Source: Methanospirillum hungatei
GTDB taxonomy: Archaea; Halobacteriota; Methanomicrobia; Methanomicrobiales; Methanospirillaceae
DNA length: 64,000 nucleotides
Assembly (NCBI RefSeq): GCF_019263745.1
Contig: NZ_CP077107.1
Span: forward strand, 1,364,001-1,428,000
Direction of reading: 5' to 3'
The stretch's first letter is position 1, and each line of letters begins with the position of its first letter. The notes beneath the pieces were generated by a model that saw only the letters and a program-made list of their open reading frames with translations, had not been told where the DNA came from and made no database searches. The translations under genes were made by a program, and so were the position numbers. Positions 40,335-61,063 of this stretch are shown here, one piece after another.

Positions 40335-40760
40335 TCATTTCCGGATATACTGACCACCAACTGGAACAAATCGTTCAGGTTTTTCTATATTCGAATATTG
40401 TTTGATATCCTTTAATACAAGGGCCATCCAGGGTTTCTTTTTCACATTTCCTTTCCGACGTCTTGTACTTTTCCAATGATCTTGATATTCCAAATATTGA
40501 TTTACTTCATCAGATGACAGAAATATCTTATTTCCGAATCTTGTGAAAAAGTTTAGGGGATTTTCATCAAAAGCGATTTCGGCGATAACCCCTTCACCAA
40601 CAAACCCTGTATCTTCTCGTGATTGATAAAAAACCAGTTTCATACCCGGTTGAATTTCTTTGAAGCAGGTTGCGGGTTTAATGAATACTGTTTTTCCCTT
40701 AAAAAACCGCCCCATATAGGACTTCGGTATCGGAAAAGTAACACCAATAATTTCCGTCAT
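40335..40760 (-). CDS. DUF365-like PUA/ASCH-fold protein
   Basis: A 141-residue protein resembling the archaeal DUF365 family, a PUA/ASCH-like small beta barrel (IPKSYMGRFFKGKTVFIKPAT, GMKLVFYQSREDTGFVGEGVI, MALVLKDIKQY). PUA-like folds usually bind RNA or modified bases. It overlaps the EVE gene upstream (ATGA) and is last in the BREX operon, so it may read nucleic-acid modifications for defence. That role is inference. Confidence 0.65.
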   Translation of the reverse strand: MTEIIGVTFPIPKSYMGRFFKGKTVFIKPATCFKEIQPGMKLVFYQSREDTGFVGEGVIAEIAFDENPLNFFTRFGNKIFLSSDEVNQYLEYQDHWKSTRRRKGNVKKKPWMALVLKDIKQYSNIEKPERFVPVGGQYIRK

Positions 40761-41200
40761 TTCTTTTTCCCTGATGTAATTATCTTATCATAATCACTTT
40801 TCGGTATTTCACGCATTGCAACACGAAGATGCCCGGACCACTTTGTCTTATTGGTGATAAAATCAAGCGAATCAATGAGAGGTTTGAAATCAATCGGGGG
40901 AGTATATACAGATATTCGTTTTAATCTGAATCGGTAAGGAAAAAGTTCTTCACCCATATGGGAAGGTATTGAAAATATTGCATTTGATTCTTCAAACTTC
41001 GCTTCTACTTCATATGCTCCGGATATTGCAGGAGGAAGAATCATAACGCCTTCGTGTTCCTGCCTGACATACATAAGAATTTTATCTCCAAGAGATACCC
41101 GCTCATGTAGATTTTTATTCCTTTTCGGAATACCCCAGATTAGTTTTTTATCTGTAATCTCGGAATTCATTCTGTTTGAAGAAGCCACCAAATATTTCAT
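40757..41200 (-). CDS. EVE/PUA-like domain protein
   Basis: A 147-residue protein with the EVE-type plan: MKYLVASS at the N-terminus, IWGIPKRNKN, VSLGDKILMYVRQ, ISGAYEVEAKFEE, and LDFITNKTKWSGHLRVAMREIP near the end. EVE domains are thought to bind modified bases and are frequent beside restriction-like systems. It starts 8 nt after brxL and is co-translated with the DUF365-like gene. Here it may sense modified phage DNA; inference from context. Confidence 0.7.
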   Translation of the reverse strand: MKYLVASSNRMNSEITDKKLIWGIPKRNKNLHERVSLGDKILMYVRQEHEGVMILPPAISGAYEVEAKFEESNAIFSIPSHMGEELFPYRFRLKRISVYTPPIDFKPLIDSLDFITNKTKWSGHLRVAMREIPKSDYDKIITSGKKK

Positions 41201-41208
41201 TCTTTATC

Positions 41209-43278
41209 CTATTCTGTTGCCAGAGCTTTAAATACTGCTTGCATAGGTTCTGAGTAAAAGGTGACTTGAACCTTATCCAGTAGTTCTGGAGGAATGTTAC
41301 CAAAATCAGCTGCATTCGTTGTTGGAATGAGAACCTGTTTTGCACCGGCATCCATTGCAACACGTATTCTATCCCCCAAATGCTCGACTCTGGTTAAAAC
41401 ACCATGAATCGTCATCTCGCCCAGGACAACCATCCCCCCTGCCAGGGGTTTGTTGACAATTGCTGACAACATTGAGGTAAAAAACGCCACTCCGAGATCT
41501 GGTGAATCGGTTCCATGTCCCGGACTCATGACCTGGATACTGAGATCATAACTATCAATGTCATGTTCAAGCCCAAGTTTTCGACTATTCACTTTCAGAT
41601 AATTATGAGCCATTTGTGCAGAATCCTTTATGGATTTTGAACTAATTCCTACCAGTTTTAATTTCCCAGACCCCGTGGTTCCTGCAACTTGTATCCGAAA
41701 GAGTGCGACTCTCCCCAGGCCATTGTCCCATCCAATTGTGAATATGTCTCCAGGAGAAAGAGGGGTTTCTGGAATCAATTTAGATACTCCCAGTTCCTTG
41801 CATTCCGCATAAAACTCTTCTCCTGTTTCTTTGTCGATATAGGAAAGATTGACTTTAGAAAATTCCAGAGGATTAATACGTTTCAGTTGTTCTCTCACTC
41901 TTCGTCGCATCTCAAGTCCAAAAGCCACATATTCAGCCATTTCTTCTTTTGAGCATTTTCCATCTGGATGAATGAGTTTCATCAGACCGGATATTGTTTT
42001 CTTTGCGGATTTTTCATCACGTTTACTTGCAGAACCAAATTTAAAGAATTCTTCATATTGGTAGGTATAATTTAATGGGCGGAGATTATTGTGAAAGATT
42101 TCAGCAAAATAATCGGCAACAAATCCTAAATGTGTGGTTAAATGATCCGGAATTAATTTTGGCATCTCCCAGCCGGGTAAATACCCATGCCACCGGTCAT
42201 GAAATGCCGTATCATTTCGTATTGTTTCAGGGAGAGGAGTAAAAAGATGAGTTGTACGGGCTATTGATTCCACGTCGCCATCGATATTACCATTGAAAAC
42301 AATGCCACCTTCAGCGGAAAGGGTTCCCTTATCATCTCCCCGTGAGAATGAACCCTGTTCCATATACCCCTTAAACATCTGCTTGTTAGATTCATCCTTA
42401 AAATGAGAGCCGGCTACTTCATCAAAAGCAACTACATCATTTTTTACTACAAGTCCGGGTTTGTCTTTTCGGTTCTTCCATCCGAAAAGATCAGCTACTG
42501 ATCCTTGTCCTCCGGAAAGGAGCATGACATAAGGGGATATTTCCCGATAAACAAAAGATTTCCCAGTCTCACGGGGACCTAGTTCGATAAGGTTGTAATT
42601 CTTCTCAACCATTGGTATGAGGCGGAGAAGAATCAGCATTTTCACACGCCAAGTAAAATCAGGGTGATTGGGTTCATACCCCATGGAACGAAGGATAATA
42701 TCAACCCATTCATCGCGAGTGAACTGCTTTCTCCCTTCAATCCAGTCTTCCAACCTGGCACTTGCGATCTGGATCGGTTGTATTCGTTTGATAACAAATG
42801 GCCGAGTTACTCCTCCATGAACTATCGTTTCATCGTAAATAAGTTCGATATTAGACCAGATACCTCCGGTTAATACCCGTTCATTGTCCATGACAATTTT
42901 TTCATCAATATGAACTTTCGATAGACCTGAAGTAGCAAGTTGTGCCCAATATTTTCCGCCGAGATCCTTCTCATCAAATGATACGGTGACAAGATCAATG
43001 ATTTTCATTGAGCCAGACTGACGAAGTCGTGATTTTATAAGTTCGGTCTGGTCTGCCCTGACTACTCGTTCATTGATTGTACTGTGAACCAGTTCCAATC
43101 CTTTCCGTATCTCTTCTTCATCTGTTGTTGAACAGTATTTTCCAAGAAGGTACTCAAGAACGTATACCGGGATGGTAAACCCGACTTTTAATTTATGGAC
43201 CAAATCTTTTCTGACTACACGACCAGGAAACGCTTCGATAAGTTTCTGATCCAAGGTATCGGGTAAATCACCAGTCAT
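41209..43278 (-). CDS. brxL: BREX protein BrxL, AAA+/Lon-like
   Basis: A 689-residue BrxL. The N-terminal region precedes an AAA+ domain with Walker A GPRETGKS (residues 234-241) and Walker-B-like VVAFDEVAG; the C-terminus resembles the Lon protease domain (VMSPGHGTDSPDLGVAFFTSML ... GGMVVLGEMTIHGVLTRVEHLGDRI ... GAKQVLIP). At the Lon catalytic Ser this copy has Asp-Leu (SPDLG, not PSAG), and no Lys is seen at the dyad site, so proteolysis is doubtful. BrxL is needed in type 1 BREX to block phage replication. It overlaps pglZ by 11 nt. Confidence 0.92.
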   Translation of the reverse strand: MTGDLPDTLDQKLIEAFPGRVVRKDLVHKLKVGFTIPVYVLEYLLGKYCSTTDEEEIRKGLELVHSTINERVVRADQTELIKSRLRQSGSMKIIDLVTVSFDEKDLGGKYWAQLATSGLSKVHIDEKIVMDNERVLTGGIWSNIELIYDETIVHGGVTRPFVIKRIQPIQIASARLEDWIEGRKQFTRDEWVDIILRSMGYEPNHPDFTWRVKMLILLRLIPMVEKNYNLIELGPRETGKSFVYREISPYVMLLSGGQGSVADLFGWKNRKDKPGLVVKNDVVAFDEVAGSHFKDESNKQMFKGYMEQGSFSRGDDKGTLSAEGGIVFNGNIDGDVESIARTTHLFTPLPETIRNDTAFHDRWHGYLPGWEMPKLIPDHLTTHLGFVADYFAEIFHNNLRPLNYTYQYEEFFKFGSASKRDEKSAKKTISGLMKLIHPDGKCSKEEMAEYVAFGLEMRRRVREQLKRINPLEFSKVNLSYIDKETGEEFYAECKELGVSKLIPETPLSPGDIFTIGWDNGLGRVALFRIQVAGTTGSGKLKLVGISSKSIKDSAQMAHNYLKVNSRKLGLEHDIDSYDLSIQVMSPGHGTDSPDLGVAFFTSMLSAIVNKPLAGGMVVLGEMTIHGVLTRVEHLGDRIRVAMDAGAKQVLIPTTNAADFGNIPPELLDKVQVTFYSEPMQAVFKALATE

Positions 43279-45751
43279 CGATATCCTGCCTCAATTCCAC
43301 TTGTTCCTCTGCCAATCGTTGTTCATTTTCGGCGTCTTCTACACATACCATAAGATATTCGCCGGAAAGAAGAGCTGGAGCACCTGGGACAAGTTCAAGT
43401 TGTATGGTCTGAACTCCTCCACCGGGATTAACAGATATTGGTTCTTTCTGTTTAAAGACCACTCTTCCCTCTTTATCTCTCACTTTTACCAGAACAGTTC
43501 GGCCAGAAAGGGATTCATCAGCTCCGAACAATCGTTTCTGCCCCCCATCTTCAATTTGAACCCGAGGTGTCAGGCTTGTAATAAACTGAACGGGTTTTAG
43601 AACGATGGTGATCTCAGTAGTTTTTTGAGGCCATTCTGCATAAATTACCGGGATAATGATCTCCTGAAGGGTGGCTCCACCGTGGAAAAATCCAAGCCCT
43701 CCATATGTTTTAAAGGCATTTGTACTCCATGGGACACGAACCGTCAGATCAGATCCAGAGGCAGGAAGGATGAGAGATTTTGTAGAACTCAAATTTCTGC
43801 CAACAACTGCTCGTCTTGATTGCCAAAGGATATTTCCGTTATTTTCAATAGTCTCGATATCATCTTCGCCAGGTTGCCAATGGAAGTATCCATGATCGGT
43901 GACAATTACAAAACGGTTCCATCCTTTTTCCCGTATCTTTTTTATTCCCTTTGTATATCGCCTGAGAAGGTTCTCTGCACCGGTTTGTTTCAATTCTCCA
44001 ATGGTTCCACTTGCATCGAGTTCTCCCCCCTCAACAACCATCATCGGATTGTTTTTATTTGGCTTTTTGATATCCCCACTTAAGACCTCATCCATTAACA
44101 TAAACTGTTTTACCCCAAGAGAACGGGAAAACCAGTCCCTCCAATTACCCGCAACGGTAAGATCTTTTAGGAAGTCGTTCGTTGTTACGGTAAAATTCCC
44201 TTTAGTTTCATCGAATGATACTTTCAATTGAGAGGAAGAAATAGGGAGTGAATGGGGTTTCCCGATCATGGTGATACTGGGAAGTGAAGCCCGGGCATAA
44301 TGGACCTGAGCACGTTGTCCCCCTTCACCCTGGTTAAGCATTGCGGCTAGTCTTACACCCAGATCATATCGTAGGGCATCAAGAAATATGAAAACCAAAG
44401 GACCTTTTTGGAGCTGAAGAAGATTATTTGCCTTTTCACCAGCGGTCTCGAGTGTTGAGATCCCATTACAGTCATGAGCGAGACGTTCTGAGAAGAGCGA
44501 GCCAATATGAGATACAATCTGGAGGTAAAGTCGCTTTAATCGATCCCTTATTTCATTGATATCATCGGAGAACTCTTCTTTTTCTTCAAATAGTAATTCA
44601 CCAGCTTCATCGATGGTATAACCAGACTGGGTATACCATTCAATGGCCTGCATAACAGAAGACCACGGATTGATGGCATTTCCAACCAATAGAGTCTGGG
44701 CTATAGAACTTAATTTTAACAGATGACTCCACCAAACAGTATGATCAACTGATGCACGGTTCCCAAAGAAAGAATCGGTATGAGATTGGTACCATTCTTT
44801 TCTTTTTGAAAGGATTTGTGCAAGATCCTGTATTGATTGAGTGGAAATTAGTGATGAGATCTCTCTGCGAAATAATTCACGTTCGATGTGATATGATGAC
44901 GATGGCTCAGCATTGTCAGGGATATCGGGTGCAATCGAACGGATGCTGGTAAGTCGTTCGGCTTCTAATACGATTCGTTCATATGTCTCAAAATATGGAA
45001 CGGTGTTTTTCCAGGTATCCAGTATATTTTTCAGGGTTTTTTCCCGAATCTTTCCTTCAGGAATTACCCGGTGGCTATCCCCAGGATTCTTTCCGGGGTA
45101 TTGTCGTGCGATCTCTGTACACAGGAGAGTTGCGACAACTTCACGTCTCCATTTTTTTTCATCTTCTAAGGTGGGTTCAGGCAGACCGAATTCGTGTACT
45201 AGTCGATTTGATAATAGGATGAATTCATCCTGTTTCAGATCAGATAAACGGGAGGTTGGACTCCCAATTATTTCCAGGACCCTGGCATCGGTAATAATAT
45301 TGTCCGATCCGCTTCTGGTCCATACATCTTTTGTCTCATCAAACCACTGAAGGGCGTAAGATTTGAGGGTTTCTCCCATCTTCTGCTCTTGGTCCCAGGG
45401 AATTTCTGCTCCAAATGAACGTAAAGCCTCGGCTAATCGTAATTGTTTTGTACAAGGTGCTTTGAGTGCTTCGATAGCAAACCAGGTCATTTCATTATCT
45501 TGGATAGGTAGTCGGATAATCCGGGGGCGATGAGGTTCCTGATTGAGGGTATATCGAATATTGAGTTCATGTATTTCCTCTCCGTCCCAATATTCTATAT
45601 TGCTATCAGACGAGAATTTTTTAAGGATATCTTTCCATTCTCCCTGGCTATCATACCAGAGAACCCAACCATGTTCGTCATTTAGGTACGGACAGATAAT
45701 TGAAGATAACCAGGAGTGAAATGTTTTGTTGTTATCTGAAGCCGATGTCAT
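43268..45751 (-). CDS. pglZ: BREX protein PglZ, alkaline phosphatase-like
   Basis: An 827-residue PglZ, the hallmark of all BREX types. The alkaline-phosphatase-like metal site is suggested by VFIFLDALRYDLGVRLA in the centre and RFVIVTDHGYFHWQPG further on. A C-terminal beta region follows (VRVPWSTNAFKTYGGLGFFHGGATLQEIIIPVIY). Its substrate in BREX is unknown. A TATA-like AAAATATG upstream near 45770 could give this gene its own promoter after the inserted block. Confidence 0.94.
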   Translation of the reverse strand: MTSASDNNKTFHSWLSSIICPYLNDEHGWVLWYDSQGEWKDILKKFSSDSNIEYWDGEEIHELNIRYTLNQEPHRPRIIRLPIQDNEMTWFAIEALKAPCTKQLRLAEALRSFGAEIPWDQEQKMGETLKSYALQWFDETKDVWTRSGSDNIITDARVLEIIGSPTSRLSDLKQDEFILLSNRLVHEFGLPEPTLEDEKKWRREVVATLLCTEIARQYPGKNPGDSHRVIPEGKIREKTLKNILDTWKNTVPYFETYERIVLEAERLTSIRSIAPDIPDNAEPSSSYHIERELFRREISSLISTQSIQDLAQILSKRKEWYQSHTDSFFGNRASVDHTVWWSHLLKLSSIAQTLLVGNAINPWSSVMQAIEWYTQSGYTIDEAGELLFEEKEEFSDDINEIRDRLKRLYLQIVSHIGSLFSERLAHDCNGISTLETAGEKANNLLQLQKGPLVFIFLDALRYDLGVRLAAMLNQGEGGQRAQVHYARASLPSITMIGKPHSLPISSSQLKVSFDETKGNFTVTTNDFLKDLTVAGNWRDWFSRSLGVKQFMLMDEVLSGDIKKPNKNNPMMVVEGGELDASGTIGELKQTGAENLLRRYTKGIKKIREKGWNRFVIVTDHGYFHWQPGEDDIETIENNGNILWQSRRAVVGRNLSSTKSLILPASGSDLTVRVPWSTNAFKTYGGLGFFHGGATLQEIIIPVIYAEWPQKTTEITIVLKPVQFITSLTPRVQIEDGGQKRLFGADESLSGRTVLVKVRDKEGRVVFKQKEPISVNPGGGVQTIQLELVPGAPALLSGEYLMVCVEDAENEQRLAEEQVELRQDIDDW

Positions 45752-45794: not shown

Positions 45795-46307
45795 TTACAT
45801 AGTATCCAAAATTGACTTTAGATTCGCATATGAATCTTTAGCCTCATCTATTGATTTTACACCTGCGATTACAATTTTCCCACTTGAAAAAATCAGAGCA
45901 GTCCCATGTTTCATCCGGTAGATAAGACCTGGGAATTGTTCAGGCTCGTATTCAACATTTTCCATCGATGCACTATTACACATGTGTGTAAGGTTAATTT
46001 TCTCTCCATAGTTCTCAAGAATGACAATATTTCTTATAATTGGTGATTCTGCTAAAGACGTATTGACATATGATGTAAGTAACGAAATGAATTCTTTCCA
46101 GGTTTCAATAAGTATATCGGGATTTTTCAGCCCAGTAAAGATGTATTTTCCAGATCTATACACTGTAGCCTTGCAGGAGGAGAGCAAGATATATCCCCCA
46201 TGATACTTTTCAGTATTATAAATATAGATAGAACCAAGGGACCGTAGCGTATCAAGGTCAACAGACTGGTGCAAATCTCCCGATGCCACGATGTTTGTGA
46301 TAATCAT
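45795..46307 (-). CDS. Divergent TATA-binding protein paralog in the BREX locus
   Basis: A 170-residue protein with the two-repeat plan of TBP. Repeat 2 is canonical: NVEYEPEQFPGLIYRMK, LIFSSGKIVIAGVKSIDEAK, with both intercalating phenylalanines in place (Phe125, Phe140). Repeat 1 keeps ITNIVASGDLHQSVDLDTL and SGKYIFTGLK but has Tyr35 and Tyr50 where Phe is usual (KYHGG, TVYRSGK). It lies 3 nt after the HEPN-like gene. Genomic TBPs are essential transcription factors elsewhere; this copy in a defence operon is unusual. It could direct a specific promoter or act as a phage decoy; role unknown. Confidence 0.85.
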   Translation of the reverse strand: MIITNIVASGDLHQSVDLDTLRSLGSIYIYNTEKYHGGYILLSSCKATVYRSGKYIFTGLKNPDILIETWKEFISLLTSYVNTSLAESPIIRNIVILENYGEKINLTHMCNSASMENVEYEPEQFPGLIYRMKHGTALIFSSGKIVIAGVKSIDEAKDSYANLKSILDTM

Positions 46308-46310
46308 AGC

Positions 46311-47030
46311 CTAATCTGAATCTTCGTTCGTGGTTATTGATGCAATTTTATCATAAGGAGAACCAAATTTTTCAATATAGTTCTCAAAATCTTTTGGCTT
46401 TATGTAAATTTTTGCCATTTCTTCAAATTTCATATATGCAATCCATGCACAAAATAATGCTTTTTTCTTATCAATTTCTGGTTTCACCATTGAAGCTAAT
46501 AAAGAATCACTTGATGCATCGACAAAATGGGGATTTACTTTTCCTTCTCTAATTTTTTTCATGATTAATTGAGTATTGTAAATTAAATCTTCAATGGTCT
46601 TCCCTGTTGAATATTTAAAGATAGGGATTGGATGATATCCAATAATCTCCTTAAGATTCAGATGAGTATAGGGATTGCGGAATTTCTTTGTAAAAAATCT
46701 TAAAAATGATATATCCTCTAAAAATAATAAATTATTGTTGAAAGCATATTGTATAGCACTTCCCATTGTACCGGTTTTCACTTCTCCAGTTTTCAAGAGA
46801 ATAATTATTTTCAAAGTTTTTTCAAGTAATTGTCCTATCAGAATTATTCCAGCATCAAAAAGAGAGAAACACAAACATCGATAAGATTCTTGGTATATAT
46901 TATAAAGATGGTCATCTAGAATAACATCTTTAGATATGGGAGTTGGTAAAAGATCATATATTTGATTAATACTCTCAACACCAATTGAAATTAAATCCTC
47001 TTTTCTTAATGAAAGTTCATTATCTCTCAT
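46311..47030 (-). CDS. HEPN-like protein in the BREX insert
   Basis: A 239-residue, mostly helical protein with no firm family match. SYRCLCFSLFDAGIILIGQLLEKTLKI resembles the helical core of DUF4145/HEPN proteins, and RNPYTHL gives an R-x4-H motif like the HEPN RNase active site. Surrounding base composition is very AT-rich. It is followed after 3 nt by the TBP paralog, so both are probably translated together. It could be an RNase toxin; uncertain. Confidence 0.55.
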   Translation of the reverse strand: MRDNELSLRKEDLISIGVESINQIYDLLPTPISKDVILDDHLYNIYQESYRCLCFSLFDAGIILIGQLLEKTLKIIILLKTGEVKTGTMGSAIQYAFNNNLLFLEDISFLRFFTKKFRNPYTHLNLKEIIGYHPIPIFKYSTGKTIEDLIYNTQLIMKKIREGKVNPHFVDASSDSLLASMVKPEIDKKKALFCAWIAYMKFEEMAKIYIKPKDFENYIEKFGSPYDKIASITTNEDSD

Positions 47031-47097: not shown

Positions 47098-48537
47098 TCA
47101 TGAGATCTTCATCCCATATAACCTCTGATACTCAGAAATTGCAAATAAATCAGTCATTGAGGAGATATAATCACAGATTGTGCGTAAAAATAACGGATCA
47201 TATACTACTAGTTTTCTCATTTTTTCATCGTTAATATCAGATATGTATCGGATATTCATCTCCAAGCTTTTTTGTTTCAACAATAATTTACCAATAGATT
47301 CAATTTTACAATTAACTGAATAATAGAGAAGAACAGAATCTGGCAACTGTAGTGGATTTGAGAGGTAGGCTTTTAGCAGTTGCCTTATTACAAATCTCCC
47401 TTTCTCATTTTCACTTATCACAGAATAATCATTTACGATGTATCTCTCTTGAATATCCTTTAAAAATAGATATATTGGATTACTTTTCAAAATTGCATTT
47501 TCTGAACATATATCCATATCTATGGGATAAAAAGTTGTTTTATCTTGATAAATTGTATTTTGATTACGTATTTTGTAATAATCTTCCATCTTTTGTTGAA
47601 TTCTTTCGATTGAATGTAACACGATATTTCCAATCAATATACTGACAAACTCCTTACAATATTGGGGTTTTAATTTATGGGAGTTTTTATCAATCAGATT
47701 TTCAATTTGTGGATAATCTGATAGCAGTTTTGATAATTTTCCATTCTTTATTTGATCTTCAATTTGTTGGAGTATAATATCTTTACTTGCAAAATTAGCT
47801 TCTATTGCGTCTTCAACATCATGACTTACCTGAGCAATTTCATCAGCAAGACTAACTAATTGTCCTTCAATTGTAGATGCAAAAGAATTTTGCATATAAA
47901 AATCTTCATTATCTGATATCCCCTCGTATTCGACATTATATTTTGATTCTCGATATTTTAGTTTTGAATGTTTCAATATACCTTCTAATACAGGAATCGT
48001 TAAATTCAACCCAGAAAAACTAAAGTACCCTTTCTCTCTTTCTGAAAGTAAACGAACACTCTGATAGTTATGTTTAAAGCCAATATTTATTTGACCTATT
48101 GGATCAAGCTTTGATTTTACCCAGATATGTGCATCTTCTCCAGATAAAAAACCAGAAAGGGTTCTTTCTCCGATATGGCCGAAAGGAGTATGACCTACAT
48201 CATGCCCTAAAGCTATGGCTTCAGTAAGATCTTCATGAACACCTACTGCCCGAGCTAAAGATCGAGCAATCTGAGCAACCTCAAGTGTATGGGTAAGTCG
48301 TGTTCTTAAATGTTCATTCATCTCACCGGTAAAACTCACCTGGGTTTTATGCATCATCCGTCTAAACGAACGTGAATACAGGATTCTGTCTCTATCACGA
48401 TGAAATGAGTTCCGTGGCTCTTGCATCCGTAAGGATTCAGGCTCTTTCTTAGGTTCTACGTGAATACGCCGATTATACGGGTCTCCATCTTTTGCAGCTA
48501 ATGGATGCAATCTTTTTTGAGTTTGATTATTCTTCAT
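47098..48537 (-). CDS. dGTPase-like HD-domain triphosphohydrolase
   Basis: About 479 residues matching dGTP triphosphohydrolase. The HD motif is intact: His83 in [10 protein letters not shown], His112-Asp113 in [12 protein letters not shown], and an Asp in [10 protein letters not shown] further on; the N-terminal [26 protein letters not shown] block is typical. It splits dNTPs into nucleoside and triphosphate; some such enzymes starve phages of dGTP. Its place in the BREX insert favours a defence role. ATG 48537 is taken; a TTG lies five codons earlier. Confidence 0.88.
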
Positions 48538-48606
48538 TATCTTAACTTCCAAGATTCGAATTCATCTAAAATTAGGTTAGTTGATGATAAACATACGAAA
48601 ATGAAA

Positions 48607-51018
48607 TCACCGGATTCTTACTCTTACTGTGTTTTTTTCTCTTAATGATACGTACAACGGAATTTCCGCTTGGTGAGTTAATCGGACCACAATAGCATAG
48701 TCTTGTTTATATCTCGGATTTGTAATCCATTTATTATGAGCAGTTACAGCAACTATAAGGGGGTATAACGGATTAATATCAGGCTTTTTTTGAAATTTTC
48801 GTATCCCTTTCTGATGAATACTGCGTTTTCTAAGATTTGTCTTAGGGTATAATTCAATTTCATGTTTTTTTAATGCGTTTGTTTCATTATCTTCTTCATT
48901 TTCATCCTGATTTAAAAATGAGGCTGATTTTCTTAGATCATCTACAGAGATATTTTTGAATAACCTGAAAGAAAGCATGTTACCAAGATAATCGATGCGG
49001 TTTCTATTTGTAGGAGGATTATATACTAATGATACCGATATCGTTCTTTTTCCCTTCGTAGTGATGAATTCTGAAGGCAGAAATATTGTATAAAATTGCA
49101 CATGATCCAGTGAAATGGAATTGACTTTTTTTAGCACCACGGAATGGTCATCAGAAAGTAATGCTTTTTGAATTGATGGTTTTCCATATCCATAGATATG
49201 AAGAAGTTTTGATAATTCTTTGTCAGTATTGCTATCTTTATATTTCAAATATTGAGTTGGCAATTCATCTGGAAAATCAGCTGAAGAAAAGAGCAATGCC
49301 TTTTGTAGATTTGCCGAATAAGACGGGAATTTAGCGAACAATTGTGAGTAATAATGAGTGATATAGGGTGTTGAAAAACTGGTTCCAATATCTTTCCCTA
49401 AAAAATTCCCTTTTGTTATCCAATTAGGTTCGAGAACAAGAACTCCATCTTCTAAAGCATACTCACCTTCTTCATCTGGTATGGTTGAATAAATAATATC
49501 ACCACCCTGGTGAACAAACTCGGGTTTGATCATCTTACCATATCCAGGGCCGATGCTCGTAAAAGGAGAAGGATACCCCGCGTTGCTTTTAACCATAATT
49601 TTTTCAGGAGTTCCTTCATAAAAAGAATATTCCTGAGCAATGGAGCCCACAACCACAGCATAAGCTGAATTTGCAGGAGATCTGATGTTATAATCTTCGT
49701 ACTCACCTAATAGATAATCAGGATATCTTTCAGGATAATCGGTAGGATACGAATTCCCAGCTGAACATACGAATATACAATCAAATTTGTTGGATAATTC
49801 ATCGATAAGAGCAGACAAAGGGGAGAGATGATTATCATAAGTCATATCAAGATCAAGTGTTTCATCATAATTATCAGGATTATCAAGATTAAAGGAACAA
49901 TTAATTAATCTTATTTCTGGGTGTTTTTCAAGAATTTGAGTAATTAAATATTCAAGGCACTTTTCAAATATTGAGTTTTCTTCAATAGACACTTCATCAA
50001 GAGATCCATTTGTATCAGAGTATGGCAATTTCGCTGAAATTAATCTGCAAACTGGAGAGTAATTTTCTGACCGGTGAGATTCATAAAGATCACCATATAA
50101 TATGATCCCGGCAACTTCAGTTCCATGACCTGAAGAGTCTCCTGCCGTTTCTGTAATAATTGGAGGATCAACGGCTGTATTACATGTATATTCGTGATAT
50201 ATTGAATTTATCAATAGGGGATGACCTGAGCGAACCCCACTATCAATCATAAGAACAGAAGGGGAACCTTCTTTCAGTTGTTTTGGGACTGGTAAATTCT
50301 TGATTGAACAGGGAAGTGTATGTAAGGATAATAACGGTTTGTTTGGCCGATCGATTCTGCAAATCTCGTCCCATTGAAGAAGAGTTGAGAAAATTTCCTT
50401 ATTAATTCTTAACTTAACCAATGCAAAGGTTTCTGATATGAATTGATCTAAAAAATCCCCTCCCCTATCTAACACATAAATTTTAATCTTATCAATAATT
50501 TTATTTAAGTAGGCTCTCTCCAATCTCCATAATTCAATATCAATTATTTCATAACTATCTGTAAGTAAAGGATTTTTTTGTAATTTTTTCCCAATCTTTT
50601 TTTCAGGAGATATTTTTCGAATATTTCCTATTGCTCCAAATTCTTTGTACCTGTTTTCTTCCTGAGAATATGTTGCGCATTTTTTATAAAATTTTGAGAA
50701 TGAGATATCAGTTGTTGAAGTAATCCATGTACCTTTTTTTAGAGGATTCGGTGATATAACATTAATATCGATTCTCTTAAGAAAAGTGGTGAAAGACTGT
50801 TCATGTATCGATGATTGATTTACTATTAATTCAAAAAGATGAGGAAATCCTTCAATATGGTTTGGATCAGTATTAAAGTGAGTACGGACTGATTCAATAT
50901 CTCGATTTATTTGAGCAAAAAATTCATTTCTATTAATATGAGTTGAAATTATCCCAGGTCTTCCTTTTCGTCTTTTTGATAGCGGCCGATAGTGTACTAG
51001 ATCTAAATGTTCAGGCAT
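48607..51018 (-). CDS. Cytoplasmic subtilisin-like (S8) peptidase
   Basis: An 803-residue S8-family protein. The triad is visible: Asp259 in VLMIDSGVRSGHP, His298 in SSGHGTEVAGI, and Ser in GTSFSTPYI. There is no signal peptide, and about 250 residues precede the protease domain, so it acts inside the cell. The start overlaps the stop of the AAA ATPase gene by 8 nt, implying a functional pair in which the ATPase may gate the protease. Role in defence is inferred from location. Confidence 0.85.
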   Translation of the reverse strand: MPEHLDLVHYRPLSKRRKGRPGIISTHINRNEFFAQINRDIESVRTHFNTDPNHIEGFPHLFELIVNQSSIHEQSFTTFLKRIDINVISPNPLKKGTWITSTTDISFSKFYKKCATYSQEENRYKEFGAIGNIRKISPEKKIGKKLQKNPLLTDSYEIIDIELWRLERAYLNKIIDKIKIYVLDRGGDFLDQFISETFALVKLRINKEIFSTLLQWDEICRIDRPNKPLLSLHTLPCSIKNLPVPKQLKEGSPSVLMIDSGVRSGHPLLINSIYHEYTCNTAVDPPIITETAGDSSGHGTEVAGIILYGDLYESHRSENYSPVCRLISAKLPYSDTNGSLDEVSIEENSIFEKCLEYLITQILEKHPEIRLINCSFNLDNPDNYDETLDLDMTYDNHLSPLSALIDELSNKFDCIFVCSAGNSYPTDYPERYPDYLLGEYEDYNIRSPANSAYAVVVGSIAQEYSFYEGTPEKIMVKSNAGYPSPFTSIGPGYGKMIKPEFVHQGGDIIYSTIPDEEGEYALEDGVLVLEPNWITKGNFLGKDIGTSFSTPYITHYYSQLFAKFPSYSANLQKALLFSSADFPDELPTQYLKYKDSNTDKELSKLLHIYGYGKPSIQKALLSDDHSVVLKKVNSISLDHVQFYTIFLPSEFITTKGKRTISVSLVYNPPTNRNRIDYLGNMLSFRLFKNISVDDLRKSASFLNQDENEEDNETNALKKHEIELYPKTNLRKRSIHQKGIRKFQKKPDINPLYPLIVAVTAHNKWITNPRYKQDYAIVVRLTHQAEIPLYVSLREKNTVRVRIR

Positions 51019-51928
51019 AAGATCCCTTCAAGAAACCTTTTCTCTTGTTTTGTCGAGATATTGCATCTTTAATATCAGATAGTTCAATTGTGGTGCGATT
51101 ATTCAATATACATTCTTTTATCGCTGCGACGCAAACCTGTTCAATATCTGAACCTGAATAATACGAAGCGGATCTTGCAATCTTTTCAATATTTACTTCG
51201 TCAGAGAGGTGAACCATCTTAAGATATTTCTCAAAGATCCTTTCTCTATTTTTGACAGAAGGCAAGTCAAAAAAAATAATATCATCAAATCGTCGCCACA
51301 CTCCAACATCTAATAAATGGGCATGATTTGTTGCTGCGATAATAATTGAGTTGCCTTTGAAATGATCTAACATAAGCATGAAGTTATTTACTACACGTTT
51401 AATCTCACCATGTTCAGTTGGATCATCCCGTTTTTTACCAATAATATCGAATTCATCAAAAAGAACTACATATTGTCCAATACTTATAAAATCAAAGATA
51501 TGTTTTAAATTAGCCGACGTTTCACCAAGATATGAAGAGATTACCGATTCAAAATTTACCGTAACAAGAGGAAGGGAAAGTTTGAAGCTTAAAACCTCGG
51601 CTGATGATGTTTTCCCTGTCCCCGGTTGACCGGTAAATAATAGTTTTTGTTTTGGTTTCAATCCATATTTAGCGAGATTATCTGCAAATTTTCTTTCTGT
51701 GATGATCTGTTCAATTGAGTTCTGAGTATCTATTGCTAAAATTAAGCTCGACCAATCGGTTAGAGGGGAGTTAATATCTAATAAATCAAATCCACGTTCT
51801 GTATCTTTTGGAACTTGATGATTTTTATAATTCGAAGAGTAGTGATTCGAATTGGATTCTCGAATTAATTGTCCAAAATTATTATCGCTTAACGTTCTAT
51901 CAGATATATCGGGCTGTTTTTTCCTCAT
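51011..51928 (-). CDS. AAA ATPase paired with the subtilase
   Basis: A 305-residue AAA protein. Walker A GQPGTGKT at residues 100-107, Walker B VVLFDEFD, sensor-1 IIAATNH and the arginine-finger region DVGVWRRFDD are all present. It lies between pglX (76 bp gap) and the overlapping subtilase gene. Such ATPases often unfold or recognise substrates for a protease. The pair could be a stand-alone antiviral module added to BREX; inference. Confidence 0.85.
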   Translation of the reverse strand: MRKKQPDISDRTLSDNNFGQLIRESNSNHYSSNYKNHQVPKDTERGFDLLDINSPLTDWSSLILAIDTQNSIEQIITERKFADNLAKYGLKPKQKLLFTGQPGTGKTSSAEVLSFKLSLPLVTVNFESVISSYLGETSANLKHIFDFISIGQYVVLFDEFDIIGKKRDDPTEHGEIKRVVNNFMLMLDHFKGNSIIIAATNHAHLLDVGVWRRFDDIIFFDLPSVKNRERIFEKYLKMVHLSDEVNIEKIARSASYYSGSDIEQVCVAAIKECILNNRTTIELSDIKDAISRQNKRKGFLKGSYA

Positions 51929-52004: not shown

Positions 52005-55000
52005 TCACCACCACCCACACTTCGGCAATTTCCCTTCCCGGCACCATCTCCGTTCATCAGCCCGCCATTCAGCCCGGTCTGCGATCGCTTTCTCCACATC
52101 CTTCTTTGCAATCACATCCGCAGCCAGTACCCCTGCCTTCTGGACCGGAGCAACATTCACTCTGACCCCGTCGTTGATATCCGGAACATACGCCTGTTCC
52201 TGGGCCAGGAATCCTGCAGCATCAGATGGGAATGGTTTAACGCCGTCGATAGAACACCAATTATCAAGGGATTCACCCCTTACAATCTCCTCAAGTTTTT
52301 TGCAGGCAAACCCCTGCTTTGCCAGCTCTTCCAGTTTCTTATCAAACGCTTTCAGTTCTCCAATGAGTTCTGAAAGTTCTCGAACCCGGCGGTCCTGGTC
52401 TTCACTCCGGTCTGATATCCCTTCAAGGTCCCGAAGCTGTGTCTCATACCGCTGCCTGAGCGTTCCCACATACTGACTCCGGATCTTCGGGATCGTGTCC
52501 TGGTTCATCGCTTGATAATAGACAAAACAGGCAAATGCTGGGGTTTTCTTCTTGGTGAAGGCTCCACTCTGCAGTTGCCAGGCAACCGGCCGTTTCTTGA
52601 ACTGCTTGGTATGGTGTTTGAAGAACGTGGTTGTCAGCCAGGCCTCCAGGGATGAGCCCATGACCTCGGTGAAGTATCGTTCCGCTTCCCGGAGATCCTC
52701 ACCTTCTGCGGTCAGACGTTCCCGAACCCGTTCAAGCAGGGTCGACTCTCCACATCCCCCGGTGATCGGGATGATACCATCATCGTCAGCCCAGGCCGGG
52801 ACCGGTTCACCCGCCTCGATCTGTTTCGGCCACCGGTGACCAAGCATCTGGAGGATCAGGACTGTGTACCGGTCGGCAAGGATCCGCTGTTCCTCGGGAA
52901 TACACCGCCAGCCTTCAGCAATACCTTCCTGAAGGAGCCAGTAAATAGAGATGGGGTGAATCTCCAGTTTCTGGGAGAGTTCTTCGAGAAAGGTTTCGGC
53001 AGGGATGGGGATCCGGGCACCAACAACGGTTTCTTCCTCATCGCCTCCGGCGGGTTCTTCGGGCTCGTCCTCCTTCGCTCCCGGTCCGGCTTCGTAGAGG
53101 GAGCGGAGGCGGGGTTTTATTGAGTCATTGAGGGAGATTCGGTGGTGGGTAATGAGATAATCAATAACTTCCTGGGGAAGTTTAGGGATATCATCTGGAA
53201 GAGAAGGGAGAGAATCGTAGTTGGTGATGAGAGGGAACCAGCCGGCAGGAGTTCCGGTTTCATAAATGATCAAATCCTGAGAACTTTCATCAATTTCAAA
53301 GGATTCAAAGGATAATTTTTCAATTATCCCTTCGACAATTATGATTATTAATTCATCAAGAATTGATTTTTCTCTAAAATTATAGGATTTTTCTAGTAAC
53401 TCTGTAGCACAATTTTTTCCCTTATAAAAAAGAGCTATTTCTACGCATCTACTTATTAAATTCTTAAAACTATTTAAAGATGGAATTGGCAAACGCTCAA
53501 TGTAACCCGATTCGAACCCCAGTTTTTGAGAAATAGCCCTAGCAAAAAATGTTGATAAATGTGAATTTAAAATCCCAATATAAAATAAACTATCCGAAAA
53601 ATCTTCATTAAAAAAGACACTATTGCTGCCATGCGAATAAATACAAGAATTTAACTTTCTAAATCCTAATCCGCTAACAACTTTTGTATATGTCCATCCT
53701 TCCTTAAAATAAGTACTTTCATTTTTTACAACCCAAGCATAGTCCCCTTTCAAATAGGTATATTTTTCGATAACAGAGTTTTTTATTCGGGAACCGTTGG
53801 AACCCCAATCCACTAGATAATTTTCTAATCCCGTCCATTTTTGAAATCTACCTGCTTTTACGAAAATTACCCATCTTAAGGTATTTTTGTAATTAATTTC
53901 ATGAATTAATCTAACAAATCGAGCATTGTTTGCTGATGCTAATCCTTGTCTGGATTGGGACAATGAAGACAGTTTTTGATTATGTATTAGTATCTCGATT
54001 AAAGGATATTCTAAATAGTATACTAGAGGAGAATTTTCTATTCTTGTGAAAATTAGTTGGTTAATTTTTTTTATGTCACTAACATTTTTATTAATCAATC
54101 CTTTTTGTTTATCTGCTGCATTACAACAACCAGTTAATCGATAAGTAAGGATTTCGTGCTTTTCATGTGGAGTCTGGTTTGATAGGATGAATAATACAGT
54201 ACTAACAACTTCCCCACCAATTTCTTCAAAAGCATGTGGCCCAAGATGAGCTAATAATTCAATTGAACTTTCTCTCAATAATCCTTTGAAGTTATAATTT
54301 GATACATCTTTGCCTTTTTCTTCAAATCTTGCTCTAAAATTTGAAAATGTCCCAAGAAACATCCACGACTGTTGGGTGACCATCGCTACCTTACCACCCT
54401 TCTTATTAAGCCCAAGATTTCGAAGAATAAAAGCTGCATAAAGATCGCGTTTCCCTTCCGAATAATGTCTCTCGACATACTTCTTGAGCATCGACCCCAT
54501 GTTTCCCGAGCCCATATACGGGGGATTCGCAGCCACCACATCGTACCGTCTTGACAGGAGATCTACGATCTGCATCCCCTGCACGGCAGCCTGCGAGAAG
54601 AAACGCTCAGTCGGGTTCGCCCGTTCTGCTTCCGCAGAAAACTGCTCCCGAATCCGGTCCATCACCCCGGCCTGCCATTCCTCGTACTCCCCGGTGCTCT
54701 TCGGAGCCATCAGCATGGTCTGTCCGGATAATTCCCCGCCAAAGGTTGCCTGACCACCGAGGCCCTTCCGGATAACCTCTAACTCTTTCTTTACCGGCTC
54801 TTCGATCTGCACCAGGCTTCCCAGTTCATCAACATGGGCCAGGCCATCAAAGATTGCTTCAAGAGCCTTTGAAAGTGGTTTATCTTCAGGATGTTTGGCT
54901 AAAAATTCAGCAAGGTGATCCTTTTCCTTCGGAAGCCGGATGTTTGTCGCAACCAGGTTCTTCGGTGTCCCGGTAAATTCAAAGACCTGGGTAGCCGCTT

Positions 55001-56111
55001 TCATCCAGAGGGCTGCACGGGCAATCTGAACGGCCCGTTCATCGATATCAATCCCGAAGAGATTATGGGAGAGGATTCCTTTGCATATCTTATCCGGTTC
55101 CGTCACCTTCCCTTCTGCCTCGTACATCTGGTATAAGATATCAAACGCTTCGATGAGGAAATGCCCGGATCCACATGCAGGATCGAGAAACGTTATTGAT
55201 GCAACATTCTTCTGCTTCACCGGAGCACGGTCAGCGTCCTTCACATAGTATTCCCAGGAGGAACAAAGATTAGACTCCGGGTGCATCTGCATCCAGATCG
55301 CTCCCAGGCTGTTCTGCACCAGGAACTTGACCATGTACGGTTCGGTATAAAGCTGGGTGGCCGGGATGATCTCGGCTGCACCCTCGATCTTCTTCCCCTT
55401 CTTTGTCCGGAGTTGTTCAAAGACCCGGTCCTTCTCTTCTCCATTCCAGTATTGGTATGCCCATCCAAGGGCATCAGGAGCGGAGAAGACGGAATCGTCA
55501 GCGATTATCTTTCCGCTCACCGCCTGGGTTCCGGAGAGGAGAGCGATGCATTCTTTCAGAGCCGCTACAGATGGCCGGAGAGCAACACCCGGAGCCTGGG
55601 GGTCGAAAATGCCAGGCAGGGTTTTTGCATGTTCTGAAAACGCCGCATCCAACATGGCAAACAGTCCGCCATCCTGACCGGTACAGAGTTGGGGGGATTT
55701 CTCTGCAATCCGTTTAAGTGCCAGGGATCGACCACCATACGAATCCTTGGTGATGATCACCTCGTCGATGAGCCCTCGTGATTCCATGCACCGGAGGATG
55801 AGAAGACGGTTCGCCCAGCTGTACGCGGTCTCCCGCACGAATTCTTCCACCGCTACTTTGCGATCGATGCCAGCCTCGTCACGAAGGGCAAGATAGGCAT
55901 CTATTACGGTCCGGGCGTTTTTATCTTCGGGTGACAGATGAGTTAGCTGCTCAGCAGGTAGGGGATCTCGGTCCCACCAGATTCCAAGTGAGTTGAGTCG
56001 CTGCTCCAGATCTCCGGCATGCCAGACATCATCAGTGTCATAATATCCTTCAAGGATATGGCGAAGATTCAGACAGAGCGGGCGGAGGATCTTCTTCTGC
56101 TCCGGATCCAT
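52005..56111 (-). CDS. pglX: BREX protein PglX, adenine-specific DNA methyltransferase
   Basis: A 1368-residue BREX-1 methyltransferase that marks host DNA. SAM-binding motif I is ITFLDPACGSGHFLIEAFD, motif IV VVAANPPYMGSGNM. The N-terminal LCLNLRHILEGYYDTDDVW-type start and C-terminal helical region are as in the family. The centre (about 53270-54380) is far more AT-rich than the ends: for example 12 GC of 60 at 53341-53400 versus 33 of 60 at 55261-55320. It probably contains the target-recognition domain. Ribosome site GGAGG precedes the ATG. Confidence 0.94.
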   Translation of the reverse strand: MDPEQKKILRPLCLNLRHILEGYYDTDDVWHAGDLEQRLNSLGIWWDRDPLPAEQLTHLSPEDKNARTVIDAYLALRDEAGIDRKVAVEEFVRETAYSWANRLLILRCMESRGLIDEVIITKDSYGGRSLALKRIAEKSPQLCTGQDGGLFAMLDAAFSEHAKTLPGIFDPQAPGVALRPSVAALKECIALLSGTQAVSGKIIADDSVFSAPDALGWAYQYWNGEEKDRVFEQLRTKKGKKIEGAAEIIPATQLYTEPYMVKFLVQNSLGAIWMQMHPESNLCSSWEYYVKDADRAPVKQKNVASITFLDPACGSGHFLIEAFDILYQMYEAEGKVTEPDKICKGILSHNLFGIDIDERAVQIARAALWMKAATQVFEFTGTPKNLVATNIRLPKEKDHLAEFLAKHPEDKPLSKALEAIFDGLAHVDELGSLVQIEEPVKKELEVIRKGLGGQATFGGELSGQTMLMAPKSTGEYEEWQAGVMDRIREQFSAEAERANPTERFFSQAAVQGMQIVDLLSRRYDVVAANPPYMGSGNMGSMLKKYVERHYSEGKRDLYAAFILRNLGLNKKGGKVAMVTQQSWMFLGTFSNFRARFEEKGKDVSNYNFKGLLRESSIELLAHLGPHAFEEIGGEVVSTVLFILSNQTPHEKHEILTYRLTGCCNAADKQKGLINKNVSDIKKINQLIFTRIENSPLVYYLEYPLIEILIHNQKLSSLSQSRQGLASANNARFVRLIHEINYKNTLRWVIFVKAGRFQKWTGLENYLVDWGSNGSRIKNSVIEKYTYLKGDYAWVVKNESTYFKEGWTYTKVVSGLGFRKLNSCIYSHGSNSVFFNEDFSDSLFYIGILNSHLSTFFARAISQKLGFESGYIERLPIPSLNSFKNLISRCVEIALFYKGKNCATELLEKSYNFREKSILDELIIIIVEGIIEKLSFESFEIDESSQDLIIYETGTPAGWFPLITNYDSLPSLPDDIPKLPQEVIDYLITHHRISLNDSIKPRLRSLYEAGPGAKEDEPEEPAGGDEEETVVGARIPIPAETFLEELSQKLEIHPISIYWLLQEGIAEGWRCIPEEQRILADRYTVLILQMLGHRWPKQIEAGEPVPAWADDDGIIPITGGCGESTLLERVRERLTAEGEDLREAERYFTEVMGSSLEAWLTTTFFKHHTKQFKKRPVAWQLQSGAFTKKKTPAFACFVYYQAMNQDTIPKIRSQYVGTLRQRYETQLRDLEGISDRSEDQDRRVRELSELIGELKAFDKKLEELAKQGFACKKLEEIVRGESLDNWCSIDGVKPFPSDAAGFLAQEQAYVPDINDGVRVNVAPVQKAGVLAADVIAKKDVEKAIADRAEWRADERRWCREGKLPKCGWW

Positions 56112-56300: not shown

Positions 56301-56316
56301 ATTACACGTGATTATC

Positions 56317-56781
56317 ATGACGGAAGATGATACCATTGACACTGGTAACAATATCCATAACCGGTCTACCCGTCATAATATTAGTGAAAAAGAAATAATT
56401 GAACGATTTATTAGGCAATCCATATATATACCAACCAATGATTCTTCTGAACCCATTCCAGAGCGTGATATGGCATCACTCATAGAGAAGTTCTTTCCAG
56501 AACTTGAAAAACCAGAAACTATAGAATTTAAAAAAATGGCTGAAGAACAAAAAAATCTTATAATTGACATAATAAAACAGGAGAGCGGAGATAAAACAAT
56601 CCCCCAGATTTGTAAGATTCTTGATTCAAAGGGGATTAATCATACGGTTGCACGAAATGTCCTTCTCGAACTTTATCATTCAAATAAAATACTCCTTGAC
56701 CGCGATGAATGTATCTGCTGGACATATAATCCTGTCCTCGCCGGATTCTATAGAAGCCGCCCCGAACTTCAGATTCGATGA
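56317..56781 (+). CDS. Putative antitoxin with winged-helix-like C-terminus
   Basis: About 154 residues, from MTEDDTIDTG. A polar N-terminus leads to a helical region resembling a winged helix-turn-helix (IIKQESGDKTIPQICKILD, INHTVARNVLLELYHSNKILLD). Its stop overlaps the start of the RelE-like toxin (ATGA), the usual antitoxin-first order. DNA binding and neutralisation are inferred; no family is certain. Confidence 0.55.
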   Translation: MTEDDTIDTGNNIHNRSTRHNISEKEIIERFIRQSIYIPTNDSSEPIPERDMASLIEKFFPELEKPETIEFKKMAEEQKNLIIDIIKQESGDKTIPQICKILDSKGINHTVARNVLLELYHSNKILLDRDECICWTYNPVLAGFYRSRPELQIR

Positions 56782-57113
56782 AACAGCCATCTGAAATCTT
56801 TTTTGCCGATGAAAAGACCGCAAAAAGATTTCATCAGCTGAAGGAAGGAACACATGAGGAGAAGTTCCTTTATAACCTCATTAGTAAAAAAATTGATGAA
56901 TTAAGTCAGGATGCGATTGCTGGAAAACAAATAAAGAAAGCTTGTATACCAAAACATTACCGATTGTTCGATAACCTGTGGAAAATTGATCTCAATGACA
57001 GGTGGAGATTAATCTATGCGATACTCACTGATGACCAAGGGAGAATCTCTCTGATTATTGATTGGTTGGACCATAAAGAATATGAGAAACTTCTGAATTA
57101 TCATGTTAAATAA
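56778..57113 (+). CDS. RelE/ParE-like toxin
   Basis: A 111-residue protein of the archaeal RelE-like group. The core pattern is IPKHYRLFDNLWKIDLNDRWRLIYAI, followed by a beta strand and IDWLDHKEYEKLL. RelE relatives cut mRNA on the ribosome; ParE relatives poison gyrase; which applies cannot be decided. It is read on the strand opposite to the BREX genes, between brxC and pglX. Confidence 0.78.
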   Translation: MKQPSEIFFADEKTAKRFHQLKEGTHEEKFLYNLISKKIDELSQDAIAGKQIKKACIPKHYRLFDNLWKIDLNDRWRLIYAILTDDQGRISLIIDWLDHKEYEKLLNYHVK

Positions 57114-60400: not shown

Positions 60401-61063
60401 AAAATTCTCCGGAAGCAGGGTACAAGCAGCCTCATAAAAATATTTGAGGAAGAAGGTAGGATTCTTCCTGATATCTTCCCATTTTTTTCCGGATAAGGTT
60501 TCTACTAATTGGTGGAGGTCATCCAGTTTTCCTGAACGGTCAACTTCAGCCTCAATTACTCTTGCATAAGTTAGATTTGTACAATATCCCCGCGACCAAT
60601 AAAACTGCGAAAGAAGAAGATGGGCCAGATCATGCTTTTTTGCATCCTGTATGGTATTCAGGTTGAATGCAAGGACTTCAGTATCACACTGATTCATGAG
60701 CTTTAAACTGCGGATTATTGAATCACGGTAGTTTGATCCTGTTGTAATCCTGCTCTCAAATCGCTCACACGCTGTCACACCCTTGATTATCTGATTCTCA
60801 GAAAGTAAGCCCATTATTTTTGCAAGATGAGACTTTCCAGATCCAAAGTATCCAGATATCCAAACACCCACTTCTGTGGTGTCTTTTCTGAATGAATCGG
60901 TATAATGATCGAGAAATTCATCTAATATTTTCTCGATAAGAGGAGTTACAACATAACTACCAATCTCTGCAGCAAGTTTGGTTTCATCTCCCTTTTCTGC
61001 AACCTTAATTACAGCTTCAATTTTATCCGATATTGGAATTTCAAAAATTTCCTCGATTTTCAT
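57419..61063 (-). CDS. brxC: BREX protein BrxC, large P-loop ATPase
   Basis: A 1214-residue BrxC, the ATPase of type 1 BREX. The N-terminus MKIEEIFEIPISDKIEAVIKV matches the family; Walker A is GYFGSGKSHLAK near residue 75; the rest is a mix of helical and alpha/beta regions. It is required with BrxB, PglX and PglZ for methylation and defence. It follows brxB by 11 nt. Confidence 0.94.
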   Translation of the reverse strand: MKIEEIFEIPISDKIEAVIKVAEKGDETKLAAEIGSYVVTPLIEKILDEFLDHYTDSFRKDTTEVGVWISGYFGSGKSHLAKIMGLLSENQIIKGVTACERFESRITTGSNYRDSIIRSLKLMNQCDTEVLAFNLNTIQDAKKHDLAHLLLSQFYWSRGYCTNLTYARVIEAEVDRSGKLDDLHQLVETLSGKKWEDIRKNPTFFLKYFYEAACTLLPENFPNADSLKESLQRAEREELVNVAFLVQECLAYLKRKELQHPGQPQRLLWVLDETGQWIEANKGRLSAVQAFIEELAIKGQGKIMAIVTTHGDMGAIYAEARALDTEMKKIAGRFWIKPTLTTENIELVLEERLLKKNHGGEKLLADVYSRRGGGLRSIGELANTNQKLPDCTDTSFIKYYPFFPYQIHLIPEIVKSIRSKGGHGEQMSGSTRTLLGIVHGILKAGRRPYLHSEVRPMVSFDEFYYNLEGSEISPDVKSDIMRIVSKTGGSELTRQVAEVLYLVRELPYIPRSLGNISRLLASDIEEDLPQIEARVEQELAVLQDAKLVAKSGDEYEYLTGEKRSFEEEVASLMTMDPTDKEKGLTKYFVKGDGKEPYVEWLGIATLEYLGNRFPFTLIIDHTPVTGTSGSVTLDLITPYGRVAQKEDSIVQNSLTSQNTLFVVSGRVQELEQNLTRYLAMKTVAENWRGDSSKSEEARKLAREREENDLKKLRRAVMDDLATGLAGGTLIFRGAKIPIPQKTGMKPGDALRSLCGDQLKSIYTQYDRVAVRVKDDQKAIRDVVSGKGASNADVRDLNVYDIGSSTLNEHAALLSEVSGYLRSEYMQGRKVTGKALMKQFEEPPYGWDSNAIRVAVAALVREGRIEISIGNRPFRNLDDPELLEALRIKTKFDSSSIAPAGEVDTADVTTARKFLIQLTKKKNIDETAPAIYAAFDEIYQSVTSLAKPVKIWASGSGLPIPTTFSEGLIAFDDVFSITIPSQRVIEIVKNQDLLSQGYKAVHEYATFHTKHGATFVDLKEFVQTLEGILHYATEKPEIDEFVSRYKEATQARKVVDPTVWSGLIDGKNKADLALRELIVDWKEKARDAAFEIRSVVIDKAKGLQIEEEFVEGLLTDLGKCSQMIDAETHPVTLAVLAGRISGLQLGIINKLEDEYKRRHPDPFPGVRETKLEKIKVADFIQKKRIVSTGDWDQVRDSLDKKVKDLLKQEFEVELE

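Follow-up and report, generated by a model that had tools for sequence, protein, structure and literature searches.

The TATA-binding protein (TBP) paralog encoded within a BREX operon of Methanospirillum hungatei is a member of a real and recurrent lineage of defence-linked archaeal TBPs. We put it at roughly an even chance that this is a dedicated TBP lineage, present in methanogens, haloarchaea and some of their viruses and tied to DNA-methylation-based immunity, in which a general transcription factor has become a component of BREX and restriction systems or their master switch. The window analysed is a stretch of 64,000 nt (NZ_CP077107.1, positions 1,364,001–1,428,000; assembly GCF_019263745.1) from a 3.39 Mb, single-contig genome, which carries two mcrA genes and is thus that of a methanogen. 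An initial annotation of the window had proposed a divergent TBP paralog tied to anti-phage loci. That part stands, as the paralog is real and its relatives share the association; the accompanying idea of a layout without known parallel does not. The operon lies on the minus strand and contains, in order:

61644–62438, minus strand: brxA (Pfam BrxA, E 3e-12)
61075–61557, minus strand: brxB, a weak match (Pfam BrxB, E 0.004; PADLOC, E 1.5e-4)
57419–61063, minus strand: brxC (NCBIfam NF033441, BREX_BrxC, 622 bits)
52005–56111, minus strand: pglX, N6-adenine methyltransferase of BREX-1 (NCBIfam NF033452, BREX_1_MTaseX, 650 bits)
51011–51928, minus strand: IetA, AAA ATPase of the IetAS defence pair (PADLOC IetA, E 9e-86)
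48607–51018, minus strand: IetS, S8 protease of the IetAS defence pair (PADLOC IetS, E 2e-81)
47098–48552, minus strand: dGTPase-like HD phosphohydrolase, an accessory defence gene (PADLOC dGTPase, E 3e-73)
46311–47030, minus strand: HEPN-like gene, an incidental neighbour (R-x4-H motif RNPYTH by eye; no Pfam or NCBIfam match)
45795–46307, minus strand: TBP paralog of the defence-linked (TbpC-like) clade (Pfam, AlphaFold2 and Foldseek, tree, residue table)
43268–45751, minus strand: pglZ, divergent, of BREX-1 type (PADLOC PglZ, E 1e-33; below the NCBIfam cut-off)
41209–43278, minus strand: brxL, Lon-like protease (Pfam BrxL_ATPase, PADLOC BrxL, NCBIfam)
40757–41200, minus strand: EVE-domain gene, the usual TBP partner in methanogens (Pfam EVE, E 3e-13; cassette in relatives)
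40335–40760, minus strand: DUF365 gene, also a usual TBP partner in methanogens (Pfam DUF365, E 8e-33; co-occurrence P 3e-9)

The whole core of BREX type 1 (brxA, brxB, brxC, pglX, pglZ and brxL) is therefore present in a single operon. BrxC, PglX (BREX-1) and BrxL pass their NCBIfam cut-offs and BrxA its Pfam cut-off; PglZ, which falls below the NCBIfam cut-off, and BrxB are divergent. These matches, with those to PADLOC, agree with the original placement of the TBP inside a BREX operon. Where the locus departs from BREX type 1 is in the addition of IetAS, the dGTPase, the HEPN-like gene and the TBP between pglX and pglZ, and of EVE and DUF365 genes after brxL. GC content is 28–34% in the block from IetA to the HEPN-like gene, 37% in the TBP gene and 37–48% in the BREX core, compared to 51% in the flanking heme-gene region, and this unevenness indicates that the island is a mosaic. 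Two small ORFs lie on the opposite strand between brxC and pglX (56308–57113, plus strand), the second with a weak ParE-like match (E 0.005), and perhaps represent a toxin-antitoxin insertion.

Between the TBP gene and the HEPN-like gene there are 3 nt, and between it and pglZ on the other side 43 nt; the initial annotation described the same neighbours. However, homologues of the HEPN-like gene occur in just six of the 232 genomes of the order (five besides the host) and are not beside TBPs; apart from the window itself, the only one to share a genome with a TBP of this kind sits ~15 kb away from it. The HEPN-like neighbour is incidental, and a HEPN-TBP toxin-antitoxin or other functional pair was rejected given the rarity of the homologues and their distance from TBPs.

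The TBP ORF encodes 170 amino acids and its coordinates match 45795–46307 of the minus strand exactly. The Pfam TBP model (PF00352) matches the protein in two stretches (119.5 bits, E 5e-35), the better one at residues 89–168, and in a whole-genome search each repeat separately exceeded the Pfam cut-off (79.3 bits for repeat 2, 43 bits for repeat 1). The canonical sequences YEPEQFPG and IFSSGK are present in repeat 2, together with both Phe residues and the TFB-contacting stirrup EPEQ, whereas repeat 1 has YHG and VYRSGK and thus Tyr at both Phe positions, so that one of the two intercalating Phe pairs is kept and the other replaced by Tyr/Tyr. The roles of EPEQ and of the intercalating residues are established from TBP-TFB structures. 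The AlphaFold2 model (pLDDT 89.4, pTM 0.81) predicts the saddle fold, and all 44 Foldseek matches in the PDB at E ≤ 0.001 were TBPs or TBP fusions or complexes (TM normalised to the query 0.78–0.92). By homology and predicted fold the protein is a member of the TBP family, but an altered one. The initial reading of two recognisable repeats, a near-canonical second one with its Phe pair and a first one with Tyr/Tyr, was accurate, and the saddle was obtained when its proposed structure prediction was run. The accompanying count of other TBPs found two further, canonical genes in the host genome, which thus has three TBPs and a single TFB gene; the window protein is not the only TBP of the organism.

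Searched against the order, the window protein finds 14 sister sequences with E values between 1e-48 and 1e-41, after which there is a drop to canonical TBPs at ~1e-27. Apart from two partial copies, a profile of this subfamily separates it from other proteins (257–315 bits versus 142 bits or less). In total 17 copies occur in 16 of the 232 genomes; two of these copies are clearly incomplete and a third (G051/L063) has lost its start. A further candidate relative with 52% identity over one segment (L013) has a canonical repeat 1, clusters with canonical TBPs and was rejected. The methanogen genes lie near a variety of defence systems, including BREX (L052, L054, L058, L060), type I restriction-modification (R-M; L051, L057, L062), a type III methylase (L053), a type IIG enzyme with a PLD-SNF2 helicase (L050), HKD-Snf2 (L059) and HEC-01 (L056, L060, L061). 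With its relatives so regularly found at anti-phage loci, the window TBP is not a chance insertion. The TBPs of the type IIG/SNF2 locus L050 and the BREX locus L052 are 96.5% identical.

In most methanogen loci the TBP closes a cassette, EVE - (PDC-S18) - DUF365 - TBP, and in six of them the EVE-DUF365-TBP cassette is divergent from the defence operon. DUF365 is present in 13 of the 16 TBP-bearing genomes compared to 38 of all 232 (hypergeometric P 3e-9, an indicative value since the species are not fully independent). The PDC-S18 protein defined by PADLOC (304 aa; DUF5655 with a weak NucS_C match) often joins the cassette as a fourth member (L053, L054, L057, L062, L116). Treating DUF365 and EVE as one fold found no support from hhalign, and a DUF365 model built from a single sequence was too poor to be informative. 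No relative of the methanogen subfamily was found among the IMG/VR viral contigs searched.

The haloarchaeal TBPs that score best against the methanogen profile also have the YHG/YRSGK form of repeat 1. In a maximum-likelihood tree they group with the methanogen subfamily and are split from canonical TBPs with support of 100/100, a split also recovered without the two longest branches. The resulting clade, methanogen and haloarchaeal, numbers at least 34 TBPs. An AU test rejected the idea that the methanogen subfamily arose from the canonical TBPs of methanogens (p 0.015), with long branches remaining a caveat. Although the haloarchaeal neighbourhoods were not selected by context, all 12 of those examined adjoin N6-methylase systems. 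Counting defence homologues above 60 bits by BLAST against a fixed reference set, with own-locus proteins excluded, 23 of 26 clade loci scored positive versus 0 of 21 canonical TBP loci; nine of the latter gave only a 44–48-bit helicase match. Canonical TBP genes of the order (L119–L122, L125, L133–L136) have a large helicase-like gene adjacent, at 44–48 bits to an SNF2 reference.

Gene order is partly conserved across archaeal classes. On a plasmid of Haloarcula halophila the order is brxC - (one gene) - pglX - TBP - pglZ - brxL, so that TBP-pglZ-brxL is common to the window and to a different class of archaea. The initial annotation knew of no described system with this layout and suggested a search of other archaeal BREX loci; that search uncovered the Haloarcula case, other relatives lie beside systems of types I, IIG and III, and the layout is no longer without parallel. 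In BREX-5 plasmids of Halanaeroarchaeum, Halococcus and Halorarius the TBP adjoins pglX or pglZ, but it is absent from nine of the 12 BREX-5 plasmid loci inspected and is therefore optional there. Several haloarchaeal plasmids carry a conserved hypothetical gene of ~178 aa immediately 5' of BREX-5 pglZ (e.g. L153 9463–9999, L156 9465–10001, L157 9468–9998), which was considered as a TBP and rejected, as it is not one.

Elsewhere in haloarchaea (pHLAC01, Halolamina, Halorientalis and others) the order is methylase - helicase - TBP with genes overlapping or abutting, including 4-nt overlaps through the three genes in pHLAC01, Halobacterium NRC-1 pNRC100 and further plasmids. The TBP that ends this operon on pNRC100 is 83% identical to that of pHLAC01 and falls within the TbpC-type family NF001593, and we infer that its locus is the published tbpC locus. 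Many haloarchaeal members are plasmid-borne, and two haloviruses (the L162/L163 set) carry a TBP, HRTV-9 beside a type IIG enzyme and HJTV-2 beside an N4-methylase/Eco29kI pair. The HRTV-9 protein has the repeat-1 Tyr signature, while repeat 1 of HJTV-2 is more degenerate. Some haloarchaeal restriction islands contain tandem or divergent TBP pairs (L105 9928–11590, L106 9087–10311), in which the second copies are very divergent.

The alteration of repeat 1 is a property of the clade. The second repeat-1 Phe position is Tyr in 34/34 clade members and Phe in 30/30 canonical TBPs, and the first is Tyr in 27/34 of the clade. In repeat 2 each Phe is kept in 33/34 and the TFB-contacting EPEQ likewise in 33/34; identity to the canonical consensus is 26–30% for clade repeat 1 and 51–52% for repeat 2. 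Between methanogen members dN/dS is 0.10–0.25, indicating functional genes under purifying selection.

TBPs of this general type have been described before. Becker et al. 2014 (PMC4230888) reports TbpC-like TBPs that have lost the N-terminal Phe pairs, suggests either non-function or a very specialised role, and notes that tbpC is dispensable in NRC-1, with no transcript detected in laboratory conditions. Like the window TBP these have lost the repeat-1 Phe pair and kept that of repeat 2, and they fall on the same side of the tree; unlike here, that paper treats them as transcription-factor paralogs. Its TBP section makes no link to defence and does not mention the methanogen subfamily, the shortened hairpins of that subfamily or the EVE/DUF365 cassette. 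The best NCBIfam model for the window protein is NF001593, at 145 bits against a cut-off of 181 (255 bits for the pNRC100 protein), and its group is best called a sister subfamily of the TbpC-like TBPs. TBPs also occur in prokaryotic defence operons as part of the TOTE (TPR-OB-TBP-Effector) and TALON conflict systems, but in those systems, as described in PMC12458937, the partners are TPR-CSD/OB proteins together with nucleases of the RNase H or NERD kind, with TALON found in Bacillati, and neither the TPR-OB/CSD protein nor the effector appears among the Pfam, PADLOC and NCBIfam matches of the window operon genes. Openly licensed papers searched gave no account of a TBP linked to BREX, PglX, restriction-modification or EVE. 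What is newly seen is the association of this sister subfamily with defence. That association provides the orphan TbpC with a concrete genomic setting, namely anti-virus defence, in two classes of archaea as well as in viruses, and makes its function directly testable in model haloarchaea.

How such a TBP would act is a more tentative matter, and the three functions put forward in the initial annotation (dedicated transcription of the defence genes, promoter recognition of phage DNA, decoy control) stand as candidates. Our best guess, which we hold with somewhat less than even confidence, is that the clade TBP would be TFB-competent, have an altered promoter preference and regulate the linked defence genes, acting as an accessory factor of DNA-modification systems (BREX and type I, IIG and III R-M). 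An intact stirrup favours a role at the level of transcription, and together with an intact repeat 2 it suggests that the protein would still recruit host TFB; the altered repeat 1 may then change how the downstream half of the TATA box is kinked, and pre-initiation complexes would therefore form at certain promoters only, i.e. on different or fewer promoters than those served by canonical TBPs. By analogy with bacterial C-proteins and RptR (PMC12255303), it could set the level or timing of linked defence genes in trans, and its position as the last gene of R-M operons, or divergent from them, fits a trans-acting regulator. The analogy is a proposed functional one: the C-proteins and RptR are small DNA-binding regulators genetically tied to R-M islands, but they are dedicated regulators, whereas the window TBP is a paralog of a general transcription factor. 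The near-identity of the TBPs beside IIG/SNF2 and BREX systems points to a generic target (promoters, TFB) in place of contact with one enzyme. Regulation would be in keeping with the 100/100 split, the invariant Tyr, dN/dS, the 23/26 versus 0/21 linkage, the operon overlaps, the divergent cassettes, the presence of one TFB with three TBPs in the host, and the RptR precedent; against it are the lack of a TBP-specific motif (see below), the nine of 12 BREX-5 loci that do without the gene, and the report that tbpC is dispensable and gave no detected transcript in laboratory conditions. If this role in transcription is correct, basal transcription machinery has been recruited into immunity, which hints at how restriction operons, potentially toxic to their own host, are kept in check in archaea, which have no sigma factors.

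A lost repeat-1 pair combined with an intact TFB stirrup would also suit a dominant-negative effector, one that accumulates in infection, binds TFB via the stirrup without a productive TATA complex, and shuts off transcription by sequestering TFB or occupying viral and host promoters. TFS4, another paralog of a basal factor, is an RNA polymerase inhibitor (PMC5715097), and swapping of the cassette between unrelated systems is consistent with such an effector. We consider this unlikely, however, as in haloarchaea the TBP is translationally coupled to R-M genes, no constant antitoxin-like partner is present, and carriage by two haloviruses is a poor fit to an abortive toxin. Operon overlaps with methylase and helicase genes raise the prospect of a DNA-recognition or bending subunit, the saddle marking or bending A/T-rich or modified DNA for the methylase or helicase, with EVE and DUF365 as further readers; EVE proteins do read modified bases (PMC7641849), and TOTE and TALON offer other TBPs in conflict systems. 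Such a subunit has no need of an invariant TFB-binding stirrup, would have to serve IIG/SNF2 and BREX systems with nearly the same protein, and is missing from most loci of the same systems, which work without it, and we regard it as improbable.

Plasmid and viral carriage suggests instead that the TBP could be a general transcription factor of mobile elements, aiding expression of plasmid, island or virus genes in new hosts, for which defence genes are simply common cargo. To this we assign a similarly low probability, since an N6-methylase or BREX neighbour is found in essentially every locus, often with a 4-nt overlap and on methanogen chromosomes too, while canonical TBPs do not have such neighbours. 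Finally, non-functional decay of a TBP duplicate, an option discussed for TbpC in PMC4230888, might explain the lost Phe pair, the undetected tbpC transcript and a few partial copies (G008, G155, L063), but it is largely refuted by the data on selection and context: low dN/dS, the conserved Tyr, repeat 2 and stirrup, a fold predicted with high confidence and the recurrent neighbourhood leave it very little probability.

No TBP-specific promoter motif was found in the TBP-bearing operons searched. The divergent intergenic regions of the methanogen cassettes share no common k-mer longer than 10 nt, and a scan of upstream k-mers was uninformative. Haloarchaeal methylase-helicase operons do have a 20-nt element, AGTCTAAGTAAAGACTATAT, an inverted repeat running into a TATA-like stretch (L137 1486–1505, L139, L164, L165, L175–L179), just upstream of the 63-aa gene that heads them; four plasmid operons share it without a single change, and others carry it almost unchanged. 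Genome-wide matches with up to two mismatches number seven, compared to nine for the reversed pattern. As the element accompanies the 63-aa gene also in operons without a TBP, it is probably not a TBP element, and is probably the operator of the 63-aa protein, which appears AbrB-like by eye.
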